A stretch of DNA of 64,000 nt from Ahrensia sp. R2A130 (GTDB lineage: Bacteria; Pseudomonadota; Alphaproteobacteria; Rhizobiales; Rhizobiaceae), in NCBI RefSeq assembly GCF_000179775.1, contig NZ_AEEB01000003.1:496001-560000 (forward strand). The letters are read 5' to 3'. The notes under the pieces are model-generated. The model saw only the letters and a list, made by a program, of their open reading frames with translations, had not been told where the DNA came from and searched no databases. The translations under genes were made by a program, and so were the position numbers. Positions 45,993 to 55,500 of this stretch are shown here, piece after piece; position 1 is the first letter of the stretch; each line of letters begins with the position of its first letter.

Positions 45993-47354
45993 CTAGTGCA
46001 GGATCTGGCTGAGGAACTCTCTGGTGCGTTCGTGCTGCGGGTTGTCGAAGAACTCGGCAGGCTCGTTCTGCTCAACAATCTGACCGGCATCCATAAAGAT
46101 CACGCGGTTGGCCACCTGACGGGCAAAGCCCATCTCGTGCGTCACGCAGATCATGGTCATGCCTTCTTCGGCGAGACCCACCATTGTTTCCAGAACTTCC
46201 TTGATCATCTCAGGATCAAGCGCCGATGTGGGCTCGTCGAACAACATGATGCGCGGGTTCATGCAAAGCGATCGGGCAATCGCCACACGCTGCTGCTGAC
46301 CACCGGAAAGCTGGCCCGGAAATTTGTTGGCTTGCTCTGGGATTTTCACGCGCTCAAGAAAGTGCATCGCGATGTCTTCAGCTTCTTTCTGGGGCATCTT
46401 GCGAACCCAGATCGGCGCCAATGTGCAGTTCTCCAGGATCGTCAGATGTGGGAACAGGTTGAAGTGCTGAAACACCATTCCGACTTCGCGACGAACCTCG
46501 TCGATCTTTTTCAGATCAGACGTGAGCTCGATACCATCAACGATGATCTGGCCCTTCTGATGCTCTTCCAACCGGTTGATGCAACGGATCATCGTGGATT
46601 TACCGGAACCTGATGGACCTGCAACAACGATACGCTCGCCCTGCATAACCTTCAGGTTGATGTCTTTGAGCACGTGAAAGTCGCCGTACCACTTGTTCAT
46701 CTGGTTGATTTCGATGGCAACATCGGTGTCCGAAACGGACATGCTTGTACCGGCATCAGCGGAAGCCGCTTGCGCGGGAACGGGTGGGATGGATGCAATT
46801 CCGGCGGGCTTTGTAGCTGCAGAAGTATCTGCGGACCGTGCGACCGATGGAACGGTACCAATTGATGCCTTGGTGGTCTGTTTCGGCTTAGCCTTCGTTG
46901 TAGCAGCCGATGACTTGGCAAGCTTCGTACCGTTTACCTTAGCCTTTGCGGCCGCTGGAGCCTTCGTAGCCACTGGCGCCTTAGCTTTCGCAGCTGCAGC
47001 TTTTTTAGCCGCAGCCGGTTTCTTGGCTGCAGCAGCTTTCTTGGATGCTGATTTGGCAGTGGCGCCTGCTGTCGCATTCGGCGCATCCTTCGCCATGCGT
47101 TTGCACTGCTTGATCCACTCATCACGCTCGATACGGCCTGAAAAGTTCAGGAACTGATTGACGTAATCGACCTCGGCTTTTTTCCAGCCGGCGATCTGGT
47201 GATACGTCCAAACGCCCATTTTGTTCAGCTTCGTTTCCAGAACGCCGCCCACGCCTTTGATGGCCTTCAGGTCATCAGGAGTGCTTGGCTTCGAGATCGC
47301 CTCTGGTGCGTTGCCGGTGGTGGCAGCCGCTGGCTTTTTGGGTGTGCGAGCCAT
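45993..47354 (-). CDS. aapP: Amino-acid ABC transporter ATPase fused to an N-terminal HhH domain
   Basis: A 453-residue protein, about 200 longer than normal AapP/GlnQ ATPases. Residues 26-90 form a helix-hairpin-helix-type domain ([19 protein letters not shown], then [13 protein letters not shown]) like the one at the C-terminus of rhizobial NuoE. Residues 91-200 are an Ala/Lys/Pro-rich, histone H1-like linker. The ATPase follows: Walker [10 protein letters not shown] (246-254), signature LSGGQ (349-353), Walker B LFDEPTS (371-377), switch His 406. AGGAG 8 bases before the long start, overlapping the aapM stop, supports the full-length form; an internal ATG at 46742 has no clear site. Confidence 0.9.
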
Positions 47355-47364
47355 TGTGGCGCTC

Positions 47365-48663
47365 CTAATTACGGTGACCGGTGTCGAGCTTGCGCTCGAA
47401 ATACATGGAGTAGCGAGACATCAGGAAGCAGAAGATGAAGAACACCAACCCGACGAATATGGGCAGCTCCCAGATGATACCGTTCCACTCGGCAGACGAG
47501 CGGATAGGCTGCATGATCCCAATGGGATCAAGAATGCCGATGATGGACACGAGTACCGTGTCTTTAAACAGACCGATGAAGGTGTTCACGATCCCTGGGA
47601 TCGAAATCTTCAAAGCCTGCGGCAAGATGATGAGGCGCGTGGCCTGCCAGTAGTTCAGCCCCAAAGCGTCAGCCGCTTCATACTGCCCTTTCGGCAAAGC
47701 GGCCAAACCGCCACGAATGACCTCAGCCATGTAAGCAGAAGCAAACAGCGTCACCATGATGATGACCCGCAGCACGATGTCAAAATTGGTGCCCGGCGGC
47801 AGGAAGTAGTTGAGCAGCGTGGATGCCACAAACAACAGCGTGATGAGCGGTACGCCACGTATGAATTCGATGAAGCCGACGCAGATCATCTTGAGTGTCG
47901 GCATGTCAGAACCACGACCCAATGCGAGAAGAATACCGATGGGAAGCGATGCGACGATGCCTGTTACACCGATGATAAAGGTAATCTGAAAGCCGCCCAG
48001 CTTGCTCGATTCCACAGGTTCGAGGCCTACGTTCACGGCACTGCTCAATGCACTAACGATTGGATCGTGCAGGAACAGCATCCAAAGTATTCCAACAGCA
48101 ACGGCTGCGAGAAGCCCAACAACGGGATTGACGGATTTTGCGACGGCTTTGAAAGCGACGAATGCAAGAGCAATCATAGCGATGATCATCAGCGGGCCCC
48201 AAATGGTGCCACCCCAGATCAGCCAGTAGGCCAATAGCGGAAACACTGCTGAGAACCAGAGCATTTTGCGCGGAAGATTGTCGTGAAGCACAGGTGCGAA
48301 TGCTACCAACATCAGCACGAATGCCAGGATTGGCCGCCAGAAGAGTTCCGGCGGATAGAAGCCGAATATCAACTGGTTGAACCGCGATGTTACAACGGCG
48401 AAACATGCGCCACTGTCGATTTCGCGGCACTCATTCAACGACCCCGCAACAAATACAGAATCGAAAACAAGCCAAGGCAGCAATTTCCAAAGCCCGATCG
48501 CAATCAAACCACCAACAATGATGGAAAGAATGGTGTCGCGTGGGGTCGAGAAGAAATTTGCTCTTGCCCAAGCGGCAGGGCCTCTGGTGTTCACAGGTGC
48601 CGGAAGCGCCGGCAGTTCATGGGTGGCGACGTAGCGCACCGTTTCAGCGTGGGTATCGGACAT
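47365..48663 (-). CDS. aapM: General amino-acid ABC transporter permease AapM
   Basis: A 432-residue inner-membrane permease with about ten helices. The EAA-type loop [27 protein letters not shown] contacts the ATPase. The long N-terminal region with extra helices before the BPD_transp_1 domain is typical of AapM. With AapQ it forms the translocation channel for a broad range of amino acids. It starts 3 bases after aapQ. Confidence 0.93.
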
Positions 48664-48666
48664 AGA

Positions 48667-49869
48667 TCAGCGCTCCCTCAACGATACCGAATTATTGTAA
48701 ATGTTCATCGCACCCGAAATGAGCAGTGAGATGATAAGATAGAACCCCATGACCAGCAGGAGACATTCCATCTCCCTGCCCGTCTGGTTCAGCGTGATGC
48801 CGCCCAGCGTGCCCGTCACATCCATATAGCCAACGGCGATGGCGAGAGACGAGTTCTTGGTCAGGTTGAGGTATTGCGAGATCAACGGTGGAATGATGAT
48901 GCGCAAAGCCTGCGGAAGAATGACGAGGTTCATCGTGCGACTCGGCGGCAGACCTAGCGAATAGGCCGCTTCGGACTGGCCATTAGATATCGCCTGAATA
49001 CCAGCGCGGACATTTTCTGCGATAAAAGCTGCCGTATAGAACGAAAGCGCCAGCCACAGAGCCATGAAGCTGCTGCGAATGTAGAGGCCGCCCTGAAAGT
49101 TGAAACCCTGCAATTCCGGCAGCTCAAGACCGATGGGCATGCCCAGCAGGAAGAACATGACGAACACGGGGAGGATGAGAATAGCCATCGTGATCCGGAA
49201 CACGGGAAGGATGTCACCCGTGCGCGCCTGCCTTGCGGCGGCCCAGCGGCGGAAGATGAAAGCCCCGATGATCGAGGCAATGAAAATGATGCCCAGAATA
49301 ATCGAACCGTCGTTGAAGACGGGTGCAGGAACGTAGAAACCACGGTTGGTGGGAACGAAGCCTCCGCCCAACATGACAGGAGCCTGTCGCGGTGATGGCA
49401 ATGCTGAGGAAAACACCGTGGATGCAAGCAGGATCCACAGCAGGACCGGAACGTTGCGCATCGCTTCGATGAAGACCGTCATCAATTTAGCGACGAGCCA
49501 ATTTTTGGAGAGGCGAGCGACGCCTACCGCAACGCCAATGATGGTTGCCAGAATACAGCCGAGAAAAGCCACCACGAGAGTATTAAGAATGCCGACAATC
49601 GCGGCTTTCCAATGCGGCGAGACCGACGAATATTCGATCAACTTCTGGTTGATGTCATAGGAGGCAGGTTGCCAAAGAAAATCGAAGCCGAAGGTTTTTC
49701 CGAGGTCTTCGAAGTTCTGAATCACATTCGTGACCAGCCACGATACCATCAACATGAACACCGCGATCGTGATGATCTGCAGTGTGATGGACCGGTATCG
49801 CTGATCGTAAAAGAGTTGCGAAAGGCGGAAGGGTTCCGCTGGCCCGTCTAGTTCGGCTGCAACGCTCAT
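48667..49869 (-). CDS. aapQ: General amino-acid ABC transporter permease AapQ
   Basis: A 400-residue permease. The EAA motif region is AAYSLGLPPSRTMNLVILPQALRIIIPP, and a large periplasmic loop (about residues 95-240) separates early and late helices, as usual for AapQ. It lies between the aapJ terminator and aapM and is the first gene of the membrane-component part of the operon. Confidence 0.93.
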   Translation of the reverse strand: MSVAAELDGPAEPFRLSQLFYDQRYRSITLQIITIAVFMLMVSWLVTNVIQNFEDLGKTFGFDFLWQPASYDINQKLIEYSSVSPHWKAAIVGILNTLVVAFLGCILATIIGVAVGVARLSKNWLVAKLMTVFIEAMRNVPVLLWILLASTVFSSALPSPRQAPVMLGGGFVPTNRGFYVPAPVFNDGSIILGIIFIASIIGAFIFRRWAAARQARTGDILPVFRITMAILILPVFVMFFLLGMPIGLELPELQGFNFQGGLYIRSSFMALWLALSFYTAAFIAENVRAGIQAISNGQSEAAYSLGLPPSRTMNLVILPQALRIIIPPLISQYLNLTKNSSLAIAVGYMDVTGTLGGITLNQTGREMECLLLVMGFYLIISLLISGAMNIYNNSVSLRER

Positions 49870-50042: not shown

Positions 50043-51071
50043 TTAGCGGATTGGTGCGGCGTACATCAGGCCGCCATCTGTGTAGAGTGCGTTCAGGCCG
50101 CGCTCGATGCCGACAGCGGTGTCGGTTCCGAGGTACTTGGCGAAGATTTCGCCATAGTTGCCGCCAGCCTTAATGGCGTTGAGCGCCCAGTCATTGTCCA
50201 AACCGAGCATCGCGCCGAAGCCATCTTCGGTAGCGCCAAGAAGACGCTGGATGTCTGGATCGGTGGAGCTTGCTTTCATTTCGTCAGCATTTGCGGCTGT
50301 CACGCCTTTTTCTTCAGCAGTGATAAGCGCAAGCAGGGTCCATTTCAGGATGTCTGCCCACTGATCGTCGCCCTGACGGACGAGTGGACCGAGTGGCTCT
50401 TTGGAAATGATTTCCGGCAGGATCATGTGATCGTTCGGAGCTTCGAAAGCGGAACGAGTAGCAGAAAGACCGGAAGCATCCGTGGTGTAAGCGTCGCAAG
50501 CGTTGGCGAGGTATTTTTCCTGCGCTTCAGCGTTGGTTTCGATTGGCACGGGCTCATAAGTCATGTTGTTGGCGCGGAAGTAGTCGGCCAGGTTGAGCTC
50601 GGTGGTCGTACCGGTCTGAACGCAGATCGTTGCGCCGGACAGGTTGAGTGCGGATGTCACACCCAGCGACTTGCGGACCATGAAGCCCTGACCGTCATAG
50701 TAGTTGACCGGACCGAAAGTGAACTTCAGGTCGACATCACGCGAGAACGTCTCGGTGGTGTTACGGGCCAACACGTCAACTTCGCCGGAAGCCAGCGCTG
50801 TGAAGCGTGTTTTACCGGTGGTTGGCGTGAATTTGACGGCATTGGAGTCGCCAGCGAAAATTGCAGCAGCCATGGCGCGGCACAGTGCCGGATCAAAACC
50901 CTGCCAGTTGCCAGCGTCATCGGTGAAAGCAAAGCCTGGGAAGCCGGTGGAGACACCACACTGCAAGAAGCCTTTGGCTTTAACGTCGTCGAGAGTGGCA
51001 GCCGAAGCGACGGTGCCGGTCATTGCGATAGCGGCAGCGCCGAGCGCAAGCGAAAGAAGTTTGGTTTTCAT
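50043..51071 (-). CDS. aapJ: General amino-acid ABC transporter binding protein AapJ
   Basis: A 342-residue periplasmic solute-binding protein with a signal peptide (MKTKLLSLALGAAAIAMTG, cleavage near ASA). The mature start TLDDVKAKGFLQCGVSTGFPGFAF and the family motif GEVDVLARNTTETFSRD match AapJ/BztA. It delivers L-amino acids to AapQMP. The start at 51071 has AGGAAAGG 11 bases upstream; the open frame continues to 51224 without coding character. Confidence 0.94.
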   Translation of the reverse strand: MKTKLLSLALGAAAIAMTGTVASAATLDDVKAKGFLQCGVSTGFPGFAFTDDAGNWQGFDPALCRAMAAAIFAGDSNAVKFTPTTGKTRFTALASGEVDVLARNTTETFSRDVDLKFTFGPVNYYDGQGFMVRKSLGVTSALNLSGATICVQTGTTTELNLADYFRANNMTYEPVPIETNAEAQEKYLANACDAYTTDASGLSATRSAFEAPNDHMILPEIISKEPLGPLVRQGDDQWADILKWTLLALITAEEKGVTAANADEMKASSTDPDIQRLLGATEDGFGAMLGLDNDWALNAIKAGGNYGEIFAKYLGTDTAVGIERGLNALYTDGGLMYAAPIR

Positions 51072-51467
51072 GGGGTAGCAGCCTTTCCTGTTTCCCTGTT
51101 CGAATAGTTCGTATCGAAGGAACGTCCGCGGAAAAGCAGCTGTCGAAATAGACATAGGGGCACACGCGACTAGCGCAGTCTGCCCTGTTATCTCTCCCGA
51201 AGTGCCCGTACTGCTCTGCATCAACCTGCCTCTCCTTGTATCCGGAAAGTGCTAGTCTGATACGCAACACATGAGAACGCGGTGTCCTCTGACAGCGGGA
51301 ATACAAGACATATTTCTGACACGGTCAAGGGTTGACCGAACGCAAATACGGACCAATTGACCTTATTTTTTTGATATTTCGCAAAATTTATCAGAAAAAC
51401 GCGTCCGATATCCCGAATTGACCGGAACGTAAGAGGAATGAGCCAGCCAGTCCGCAATGATCCCGAC
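51072..51467. other. Gene-free control region upstream of aapJ
   Basis: There is no gene in these 396 bases. They are AT-richer near 51350-51410. TTGACC occurs on the plus strand at 51332, 51357 and 51418, and GGTCAAGGGTTGACC at 51323-51337 is a perfect inverted repeat. A long leader (about 220 bases) for aapJ is likely. Confidence 0.6.
51300..51328 (-). promoter_or_regulatory. Putative aapJ promoter
   Basis: On the minus strand TTGACC is followed after 17 bases by TGTATT, a fair sigma-70 promoter. The -35 box is one arm of the GGTCAA/TTGACC inverted repeat, so a bound regulator would block it. Confidence 0.45.
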
Positions 51468-53648: not shown

Positions 53649-53724
53649 TGGCAGGGGCACCAGGACTCGAACCCGGGACCTACGGTTTTGGAGACCGTCG
53701 CTCTACCAACTGAGCTATACCCCT
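53649..53724 (-). tRNA. tRNA-Trp (anticodon CCA)
   Basis: On the minus strand acceptor AGGGGTA pairs with TGCCCCT and CCA is encoded. The anticodon stem ACGGT/ACCGT holds the loop CTCCAAA, giving CCA for UGG. The T-loop TTCGAGT is intact. Confidence 0.95.
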
Positions 53725-53761
53725 ATGCGCCGCGTACCGCTAACGACAAGCTGCCCTGCGA

Positions 53762-54742
53762 TCAAGAGGTTCCTTGCGGTTTTTCCGCTTCAACCGGTTT
53801 TTCGGCCTCAGCGATCTGCGCGCTCTTACGAATTGCTCGCTGGACGGCCAGACGCTTTGCCAGCGCAAAATTGAATTCCGCACCGAACAGCATCAGCACA
53901 CTCATGCAATACAGATAGACGATGGCCACCATCATACCGGCAAGACCCGCGTAGAGCGCGGTGTAATTGGCGATGTTCTGCAGGTAGATGCCGAACAGAT
54001 AGGAGCCAAGCAGAATCGCACCAATCGTCAGCAAGATGCCCCAGATGATGCTGCGCCGCCGGTAACGCGTATCCGGCAGGTATCGATGGAAAGCGAACAG
54101 GATCAGCCCAAGCAGCACGATGGCGATGGAGTATTTTCCAGCAGTGACCAACAGGCCGAACTCTTCGAGAAAATCGAACTTCGAAACCGCAAAATCCCAC
54201 ACGATGGGTGTGGCGACCAAAATGAAGGCCGAAAGGATGAACCCTACCGCCCCCACAACCACGAAGAACGCCCCCTGAAGTCGCCGCCACAAAAACGACC
54301 GCGTTTCCTTCACCTTATAGGCGCGGTTCAAGCCATCACGAGCGTTCTCCACGCCGTTGCTCGCCAATATCAGCGCGATAACCGTTCCGAAAGAGAAGAA
54401 CTCCCCCGCCGGTTGATCCAGCAGCGTCTCCACCGTGCGCGTAATCGGCGCTGCCGCATCACCGGGCCAGTGGCCCAACACAAGATCGACCACGCCCTCC
54501 GCCAGCTCGGGGTTTCCGTAGAACCGCACCAGCGAAGCCACCAACATGAGAAACGGAAACAGCGACAAAAGCAGCGAAAGCGCCACGTTGGAGGCAATCG
54601 CAAGCCCGCCGTCATCCACCAACTTAACGATGGATTCCCACCCCGACCGCAACACCGTATAGGTCAGCGTTCGCTTGCGGTCGGCTACCGCGACGTTTTC
54701 TTCCGACCCTTTGGTTTTTTCGCGTGCGTGTGTGTCGCGCAT
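53762..54742 (-). CDS. YihY/BrkB family inner-membrane protein
   Basis: A 326-residue protein with six long hydrophobic helices after a basic N-terminus. Family segments are DDGGLAIASNVALSLLLSLFPFLML, NGVENARDGLNRAYKVKE and LYAGLAGMMVAIVYLYCMSVLMLFGAEFN. The C-terminus ends in an EAEKPVEAEKP repeat. Function is unsettled; older names as ribonuclease BN are incorrect for this family. Start 54742 has GGGAG about 10 bases upstream and lies inside the preceding small gene, giving a 58-base overlap. Confidence 0.88.
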   Translation of the reverse strand: MRDTHAREKTKGSEENVAVADRKRTLTYTVLRSGWESIVKLVDDGGLAIASNVALSLLLSLFPFLMLVASLVRFYGNPELAEGVVDLVLGHWPGDAAAPITRTVETLLDQPAGEFFSFGTVIALILASNGVENARDGLNRAYKVKETRSFLWRRLQGAFFVVVGAVGFILSAFILVATPIVWDFAVSKFDFLEEFGLLVTAGKYSIAIVLLGLILFAFHRYLPDTRYRRRSIIWGILLTIGAILLGSYLFGIYLQNIANYTALYAGLAGMMVAIVYLYCMSVLMLFGAEFNFALAKRLAVQRAIRKSAQIAEAEKPVEAEKPQGTS

Positions 54743-54993
54743 TTGCGATTGGCTCCCGTGCCGGGTGCATTCTCGAACCGGCAATACCGCGTCGACGGAG
54801 TACCGCAACGCTTTTTCAATTGTCTGAAGCCGACACAGCGTCCACTTGCAATATGTCTATAGCCCGGACCGCCCTTGCACCCGCAACCCCTGCATCGTTC
54901 CGAAGATGTGTTGCAGGTGCTGTGCGCTATCGCCGGAGGCGGACTGAGTGTGGCGAACACAACACCAGCTATAATGAGCATGAAGTAAGGCAT
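54685..54993 (-). CDS. Small Cys-rich secreted protein
   Basis: A 102-residue protein with a signal peptide (MPYFMLIIAGVVFATLSPPP, cleavage near AIA). The mature part has seven cysteines, in the pattern CNTSSERCRGCGCKGGPGYR then CVGF, RCG, YCRF and CATH. Its tail is highly basic (THAKKPKGRKKTSR). Paired disulfides are likely in the periplasm. No ribosome site precedes either possible ATG (54993 or 54981), so the start is uncertain. The last 58 bases overlap YihY in another frame. Confidence 0.6.
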   Translation of the reverse strand: MPYFMLIIAGVVFATLSPPPAIAHSTCNTSSERCRGCGCKGGPGYRHIASGRCVGFRQLKKRCGTPSTRYCRFENAPGTGANRKCATHTHAKKPKGRKKTSR

Positions 54994-55033
54994 TGGAGAG
55001 TTTTGCTGCGTTTGATCGCACGAAGCAACGAAC

Positions 55034-55107
55034 TGGAGCGGGTAACGAGAATCGAACTCGTAACTTAAGCTTGGGAAGCTCGCGTGATACCTTTTCACCA
55101 TACCCGC
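55034..55107 (-). tRNA. tRNA-Gly (anticodon CCC)
   Basis: On the minus strand acceptor GCGGGTA pairs with TACCCGC and CCA is encoded. The anticodon loop TTCCCAA gives CCC for GGG codons. The top of the anticodon stem has one G-T and one C-A pair; the T-arm ACGAG-TTCGATT-CTCGT is perfect. Confidence 0.9.
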
Positions 55108-55261
55108 GCTTGGCTTTTCCTATGCTGTCGCAACCTCTTGCGTGTCAACGCCACAGCATATGGTTGGCAAGTCGCGGCCTATTTCCCAATATCATTCGTT
55201 ATCGCCCCATTCTCACGTTGACAGTGAAAATGCCCTTCGCCATAACCGCTCTCGCTGGCTT

Positions 55262-55346
55262 GGAGGAGTGTCCGAGTGGTTAAAGGAGACGGACTGTAAA
55301 TCCGTTCGCTTAGCGTACGCTGGTTCGAATCCAGCCTCCTCCACCA
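55262..55346 (+). tRNA. tRNA-Tyr (anticodon GTA)
   Basis: A class II tRNA of 85 nt with a long variable arm. Acceptor GGAGGAG pairs with CTCCTCC and CCA is encoded. The anticodon stem ACGGA/TCCGT holds CTGTAAA, giving GTA. Confidence 0.95.
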
Positions 55347-55426
55347 GCCAGCGCTTTTGCCTAGCCTTAAAATGCATGTGCACTGCCGCTTGGCAGGGTG
55401 CATCCGGCACGATAGGTTCGCATTAT

Positions 55427-55500
55427 GCGGGTGTAGCTCAATGGTAGAGCAGCAGCCTTCCAAGCTGAATACGAGGGTTCGATTCCCTTCACCCGCTCCA
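55427..55500 (+). tRNA. tRNA-Gly (anticodon TCC)
   Basis: Acceptor GCGGGTG pairs with CACCCGC and CCA is encoded. The anticodon loop CTTCCAA gives TCC for GGA/GGG. The T-arm GAGGG-TTCGATT-CCCTT is intact. Confidence 0.95.

Follow-up and report, generated by a model that had tools for sequence, protein, structure and literature searches.

A helix-hairpin-helix-type module and basic arm fused to the AapP-type ATPase of Ahrensia sp. R2A130: a possible tether between an amino-acid importer and the nucleoid

Introduction

Why would the ATPase of an amino-acid importer carry a helix-hairpin-helix (HhH)-type domain at its N-terminus? The question is raised by a fused aapP gene of Ahrensia sp. R2A130, found at 45993..47354 on the reverse strand in the open reading frame (ORF) list of a stretch of 64,000 nucleotides (contig NZ_AEEB01000003.1, positions 496,001 to 560,000; the whole stretch is called the window below, and coordinates are counted from its first letter). 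The gene, of 453 codons with an ATG start, is predicted to encode one protein made up of an HhH-type domain, a basic linker and a complete AapP-type ATPase, and 14 distinct fusions of this kind, the window one included, were found. The reading that we prefer, and to which we would give an even chance, is that the domain is a mobile tether which, set before AapP at the end of a long, flexible and basic arm, holds the importer to the nucleoid.

The sole relative with a reported role that was found is Caulobacter PhaH. A 2025 review describes it as a protein whose N-terminus binds polyhydroxybutyrate (PHB) granules, whose helix-hairpin-helix domain binds DNA non-specifically and which spaces the granules out over the nucleoid; PhaF and PhaM are said there to act through histone-like domains (PMC13052382). 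The module has already been noticed piecemeal, in the NCBIfam models of NuoE, L21, S2 and L22, in a paper on a photosynthetic protein-O and in PhaH; searches of the open-access literature turned up a description of neither the AapP fusion nor the full range of hosts of the module.

Results and Discussion

The fused protein

The window frame is a single ORF without an internal stop, as a preliminary description of the window had read it. All of its parts lie on the reverse strand: a lead rich in K, A and P in the translation (residues 1-21; 47292..47354), the HhH-type module recognized by a purpose-built hidden Markov model (HMM) at an E value of 2e-36 (residues 22-90; 47085..47291), a basic Ala/Lys linker delimited by composition with a net charge of +18 (residues 91-204; 46743..47084) and the AapP-type ATPase with the stop codon (residues 205-453; 45993..46742; ABC_tran, 1.5e-38). 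By the HMM bounds the module is about 69 residues long, so that the domain itself is retained from the preliminary description and its proposed length of 65 residues is not; an AlphaFold2 model of residues 16-95 gave a predicted local distance difference test score (pLDDT) of 84.3. At residues 229-377 the Pfam model ABC_tran scored 132.9 bits against a gathering score of 25, and NCBIfam models of GlnQ-type polar amino-acid ATPases cover residues 214-450, the best of them (PRK09493) reaching 323.1 bits, below its equivalog cut-off of 379 bits; the ATPase would appear to be a relative of GlnQ and not GlnQ proper.

No Pfam family was reached at its gathering score by residues 1-200, which were matched by the tails of four NCBIfam models, those of NuoE (PRK12373, 1.8e-27), L21 (PRK12278, 2.5e-18), PhaH (NF045508, 5.4e-15) and S2 (PRK12311, 1.2e-14). 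The likeness to the tail of rhizobial NuoE that had been pointed out is thus one of true homology, and the NuoE copy in the same genome is 58% identical. The module profile matched the window domain at 8.6e-34, the domain itself being one row of the alignment from which that profile was made. As cut for composition, the linker comprises 110 residues with 20 K/R and 2 D/E, net +18, and consists of 36% A and 17% K. Its comparison with histone H1 holds at the level of basic, Ala/Lys-rich, low-complexity composition and does not extend to a recognized family, as no histone-like model was among the Pfam families listed for the window AapP at E values up to 1.

Is the long frame used?

An artefact would account for such a gene if a wrong start or a frameshift had attached upstream sequence to an ordinary AapP that begins at residue 205; the codon of that residue is an ATG, and a Met occurs near the same place in unfused AapP proteins too. 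The long start has, as claimed beforehand, a ribosome site of its own, AGGAG at 47362..47366 (reverse strand), which overlaps the aapM stop codon (TAG, 47365-47367), and its Shine-Dalgarno energy was computed as -6.5 kcal/mol, that of the internal ATG as -3.0 kcal/mol. Among the 14 fusions, 11 have the aapM stop 4-13 nucleotides before the long start, the outliers being G018 (51), L054 (40) and G077, in which the script found none. Of the eleven fusions with an internal ATG, ten have their stronger ribosome site, as computed, at the long start; in the eleventh, G010, the internal site has a slight advantage (-4.2 against -3.3 for the long start). In the remaining three fusions, G147, L043 and L054, a non-start codon stands in place of the short-start Met, which contradicts a product beginning only at residue 205, although L043 has an alternative ATG 11 codons before the would-be short start. 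From the stop spacing, the stronger long-start ribosome sites and the lost short starts, we conclude that the fused frame is translated and kept, and since 13 further distinct fusions occur in other genomes, chance and sequencing error are excluded. The artefact reading, to which we would attach almost no probability, was rejected on this comparison across the 14 fusions. As a separate observation, L054, from a metagenome-assembled genome (MAG), shows a frame break in the region of the fused-AapP start relative to its close relative L043.

Distribution and conservation of the fusion

How many aapJQMP-like operons carry the fusion was counted in two samples. Among 15 genomes of the same genus, 11 had an AapP match at an E value of 1e-110; on reading the loci, eight of these were fused (G000, G001, G003, G005, G006, G010, G012 and G013) and three were unfused (G002, G007 and G011). 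An even draw of 131 genomes from the family gave 118 with an AapP match at 1e-138, six of them fused (G000, G003, G018, G072, G077 and G147). Of these 118 loci, 46 were examined, 42 by eye and four that text patterns had missed (G016, G036, G079 and G136) by HMM, in which no module was detected; the other 72 were set aside on frame length, having at most 359 residues against 389 for the shortest fused frame (G018). On this basis (46 examined, 72 excluded on length) no module was found in 112 of the 118 orthologues, ordinary AapP/GlnQ ATPases which share the same complete ATPase and operon place. Two more fusions, L043 and L054, came from MAG records. Frames of unfused AapP in relatives, judged by eye, are of about 250-290 residues, in keeping with the roughly 250 that had been expected. 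In two further loci, L124 (G091) and L150 (G042), AapP has a basic Ala/Lys-rich N-terminal extension without the module, as if the arm were able to exist without the domain.

Pairwise identity among the 14 fusions has a median of 61% for the module (48-93), 31% for the linker and 91% for the ATPase; that of the N-terminal lead is 35%, taken over the 55 of 91 pairs with at least 15 shared columns. Over the pairs in which dS was usable, the median ratio of non-synonymous to synonymous substitution rates (dN/dS) came to 0.17 in the module (28 of 91 pairs) and to 0.03 in the ATPase (52 of 91 pairs). The module is under purifying selection by these values, and the sequence of the linker is hardly constrained. 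The length of the linker ranges from 39 to 177 residues and its net charge is positive in all 14 fusions (+2 to +31).

On a tree of ATPase DNA (56 regions, 14 of them fused) the fused and plain states change seven times, at least four changes being forced by well-supported branches; as the root is arbitrary, an old fusion with repeated loss and several separate gains are both possible. The tree of the modules themselves is weak (137 modules, 69 columns); in it AapP modules require three changes of which only one is forced, thus a single origin is allowed. In this tree the window genome has its S2 and L21 modules paired as sisters (support 100/99). In G077 the module on cytochrome c1 is grouped (100/86) with the NuoE module of its own genome and two NuoE modules from other genomes. 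At the DNA level, identity in G077 is 85.7% over 203 nucleotides between the S2 and L21 modules and 80% over 201 between those of cytochrome c1 and NuoE; between those of AapP and NuoE it is 77% over 211 in G018 and 72.9% over 155 in the window genome, and in G072 only short stretches match. Tree and DNA identities agree that the module is copied between hosts inside genomes.

Such copying would also be expected of a passenger, that is, a self-spreading sequence tolerated at protein ends and without a role in AapP, as would the patchy presence of the fusion, with its four or more forced gains or losses, and one odd host described below, the hydrolase-like ORF L266. However, dN/dS is well under 1, residues are strongly kept across wide divergence and the hosts are non-random, being mainly membrane, ribosomal and granule proteins; we therefore regard the passenger reading as improbable.

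Host range of the module

The window genome has seven module copies in six proteins, namely AapP, NuoE, a Dpp/Opp-type ATPase, a two-copy membrane protein, S2 and L21. A scan of named genomes (79 loci, from the best 80 of 282 relatives) was pooled with the genome loci to give 202 ORFs, of which 184 are distinct; the hosts were assigned by BLAST to reference hosts and membrane anchoring by hydropathy, and as the loci were partly chosen the numbers are counts and not frequencies. They comprise NuoE (68), other membrane-anchored proteins (32), ORFs with no host assignment (15), AapP (14), Dpp/Opp ATPases (13), phasins (13), L21 (11), S2 (6), LivG (6), L22 (2), LivF (2, these being two stretches of one gene), cytochrome c1 (1) and S1 (1). 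A complete listing of the modules in ten genomes, chosen for their AapP fusion in most cases, gave 60 places, assigned via BLAST or by eye: NuoE and S2 in 10/10, L21 in 9/10, AapP in 8/10, the two-copy membrane protein in 6/10, Dpp/Opp in 4/10 and PntA-like proteins in 2/10, together with cytochrome c1 in G077, an RND pump and the hydrolase-like ORF (L266) in G072, and a second membrane protein and one protein without an assigned family in G024. The unusual hosts are backed by Pfam or NCBIfam matches (Cytochrom_C1, S1, L22, Dpp/Opp, LivG-type, AlaDh_PNT for the PntA-like proteins and ACR_tran), the LivG-type host at 321 bits falling short of its 362 cut-off, while the LivF-like label is a name taken from sequence on an ABC ATPase match.

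Several of these hosts carry the module at the C-terminus: cytochrome c1 of G077 (L171:821-2185, forward strand; Pfam 3.7e-92), the PntA-like, alanine dehydrogenase/transhydrogenase-type proteins of G018 (L259:371-1927, reverse) and G072 (L263:443-1993, reverse), an AcrB-type RND transporter of G072 (L264:2-3880, forward), ribosomal S1 of G320 (L191:315-2354, reverse), ribosomal L22 of a Verrucomicrobiales MAG (L086:1395-2132, forward) and a large iron-sulphur (Fer4, CCG) protein of Acidimicrobiales with three copies (L105:1482-5336, forward). In membrane hosts the module is presumably on the cytoplasmic side, given their known topology. An ORF of 800 residues from Granulosicoccaceae (L109:6854-9253, forward), which had no Pfam match at an E value of 1e-4, bears a divergent copy close to its end and shares its contig with an L21 bearing two modules. 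At 1e-10 the module was present in 88 of 101 genomes of the family, and at 1e-8 it was present in 20 of 192 genomes of the class. Taken together, the sequences describe a mobile module borne by many inner-membrane, ribosomal and granule proteins. As it sits on so many hosts, a link peculiar to amino-acid import, one part of the earlier proposal, is not favoured.

Relatives of known structure or name fit this picture. PhaH is homologous with the window domain through its C-terminal HhH module (model positions 159-233 of 234); the window protein scores 56.2 bits on this tail only and does not reach the whole-protein cut-off of 250 bits, which takes in the phasin N-terminus. The two differ in host and in arrangement: PhaH is a granule protein with the module C-terminal, whereas the window protein is an importer ATPase that has the module at its N-terminus, followed by a long basic linker. 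The extended rhizobial NuoE has the same module at the C-terminus of a complex I subunit, and profile matches place it at the C-terminus of the complex I 41 kDa subunit (9wqv_a, 2.4e-31), on whose structure no literature was found, and of the Dinoroseobacter protein-O of the reaction centre-light-harvesting 1 (RC-LH1) complex (8yy9_O, 4.6e-31), both being hosts in other complexes. In the paper on protein-O the module is untraced in the map, is compared with NuoE tails and has its functions called obscure (PMC12079452). The L21, S2 and L22 fusions (PRK12278, PRK12311 and PRK12279, 'unknown domain fusion protein') have it C-terminal as well, but on ribosomal hosts and in acidic copies. A COG3743 'H3TH' match in Halomonas PhaC2, mentioned in one paper (PMC8686332), is a candidate for the same module.

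A broader reading, which we hold only tentatively, is that in Alphaproteobacteria, and in a few other groups, a single mobile HhH module serves as a general docking tag, attached to its host machines by flexible arms and placing them on one scaffold. Its clients would be ribosomes, PHB granules, complexes I and III, transhydrogenase, the photosynthetic core, the RND pump and the ATPases of importers for amino acids and peptides, AapP being one among them, and the scaffold would be either the nucleoid or the clients themselves. On this reading there would be a built-in physical membrane-ribosome-chromosome link, independent of nascent chains.

What might the module bind?

The AapP fusion unites a PhaH-type module with an H1-like basic arm, and for this reason tethering to the nucleoid is preferred. 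The earlier suggestion that the ATPase may also bind DNA or another protein is strengthened by PhaH, and DNA is the likeliest candidate ligand. The module would bind it non-specifically, as in PhaH, aided by the basic linker; with the ATPase sitting beneath AapQM on the membrane, the importer would be tied to the nucleoid and its place or clustering biased, and ATP hydrolysis and transport need not change. The histone-like DNA-binding proteins PhaF, PhaM and AlgP resemble the linker in being rich in Ala, Lys and Pro. Histone-like stretches are reported to hold granules on DNA (PMC13052382) and PhaF has AAKP motifs (PMC8686332); these proteins differ in that no HhH module is reported there, and in that the basic stretch of the window protein links two folded domains. 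In other HhH families, such a domain fused to DNaseI, of the ComEA type and not the window module, raised the salt tolerance of the enzyme, which is ascribed to tighter DNA binding (PMC4777378).

The module is a putative member of the HhH class. HHH_5 was matched by 57 of 69 alignment members at E values up to 1 (best 6.9e-08), and L105, with its three copies, passes this model as a whole protein (40.9 bits against 27). The HhH consensus usually has Ala at one position.

A number of points weigh against a nucleoid tether. The window domain lies below the Pfam gathering scores for HhH families (IMS_HHH, 15.9 of 24.4 bits; HHH, 13.6 of 24), the consensus Ala is mostly Glu in the module, and HhH relatives such as the NusA repeats also bind proteins. 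Only 86 of 197 module copies are net positive, and the acidic modules of ribosomal proteins and phasins speak against a uniform DNA role; the median charge is +3 to +4 for copies borne by ABC ATPases, 0 for those of NuoE, -2 for those of phasins and -4 to -5 for those of ribosomal proteins. As charge tracks the host in this manner, simple DNA binding everywhere is doubtful. Even among the AapP fusions the linker of G003 is only +2 and the domain of G072 is -1, and since three of the 11 same-genus AapP proteins lack the module it is dispensable. Linkers on non-AapP hosts can be neutral or acidic; all AapP linkers being positive and those of other hosts variable, the domain is the constant element.

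The same charges bear on a protein-docking module, whose copies would interact with one another, or with a single common partner, and so cluster their host machines; in one variant the basic copies of ABC ATPases perhaps pair with the acidic copies of ribosomal proteins and phasins. The sharp contrast between ABC and ribosomal hosts would suit this, and so would a polar face that is kept more strongly than plain backbone DNA binding seems to require: in five host classes (179 of 197 copies; module numbering) W59 is found in 100% of each, R53 in 94-100%, Q62 in 90-100%, R56 in 85-100% and Q32 in 76-100%. In the family sample, moreover, the five genomes known to have the fusion contain 7, 7, 5, 7 and 8 modules, whereas the median in the other 96 is 2 (range 0-7), ten of them having five or more; this comparison ignores kinship, and fusion status was checked in part of the 96. 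However, PhaH is reported to bind DNA (PMC13052382), the charge classes partly track descent in the domain tree and a partner is not known. We judge docking between proteins less likely than a nucleoid tether. The module might instead bind RNA or the ribosome, bringing translation near membrane complexes; its presence on ribosomal proteins notwithstanding, the ribosomal copies are net acidic and the one function found reported for a relative is DNA binding, and little probability can be given to it.

Linkage between membrane, ribosome and nucleoid is usually credited to transient transertion. If the tethering reading is correct, this linkage would gain a genetic handle in a tether module that moves among ribosomal proteins, respiratory complexes and importer ATPases. 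Such a module would also provide a candidate function for the unknown-domain fusions of NuoE, L21, S2 and L22 and for the module of RC-LH1 protein-O.

Neighbouring genes

Upstream of the fused gene and on the same strand lie the two permeases, aapM (47365..48663; BPD_transp_1, 5.8e-21) and aapQ (48667..49869; BPD_transp_1, 1.4e-13), and a family-3 binding protein, aapJ (50043..51224; SBP_bac_3, 1.6e-17; the ORF is taken from its first possible start, TTG), which together make up an aapJQMP-like operon; the names aapJ, aapQ, aapM and aapP are given by the resemblance of the operon. Elsewhere in the window, four tRNA genes lie within 1.9 kb (53652-55497), two on the reverse strand (53652-53724 and 55037-55107) and two on the forward strand (55262-55343 and 55427-55497).
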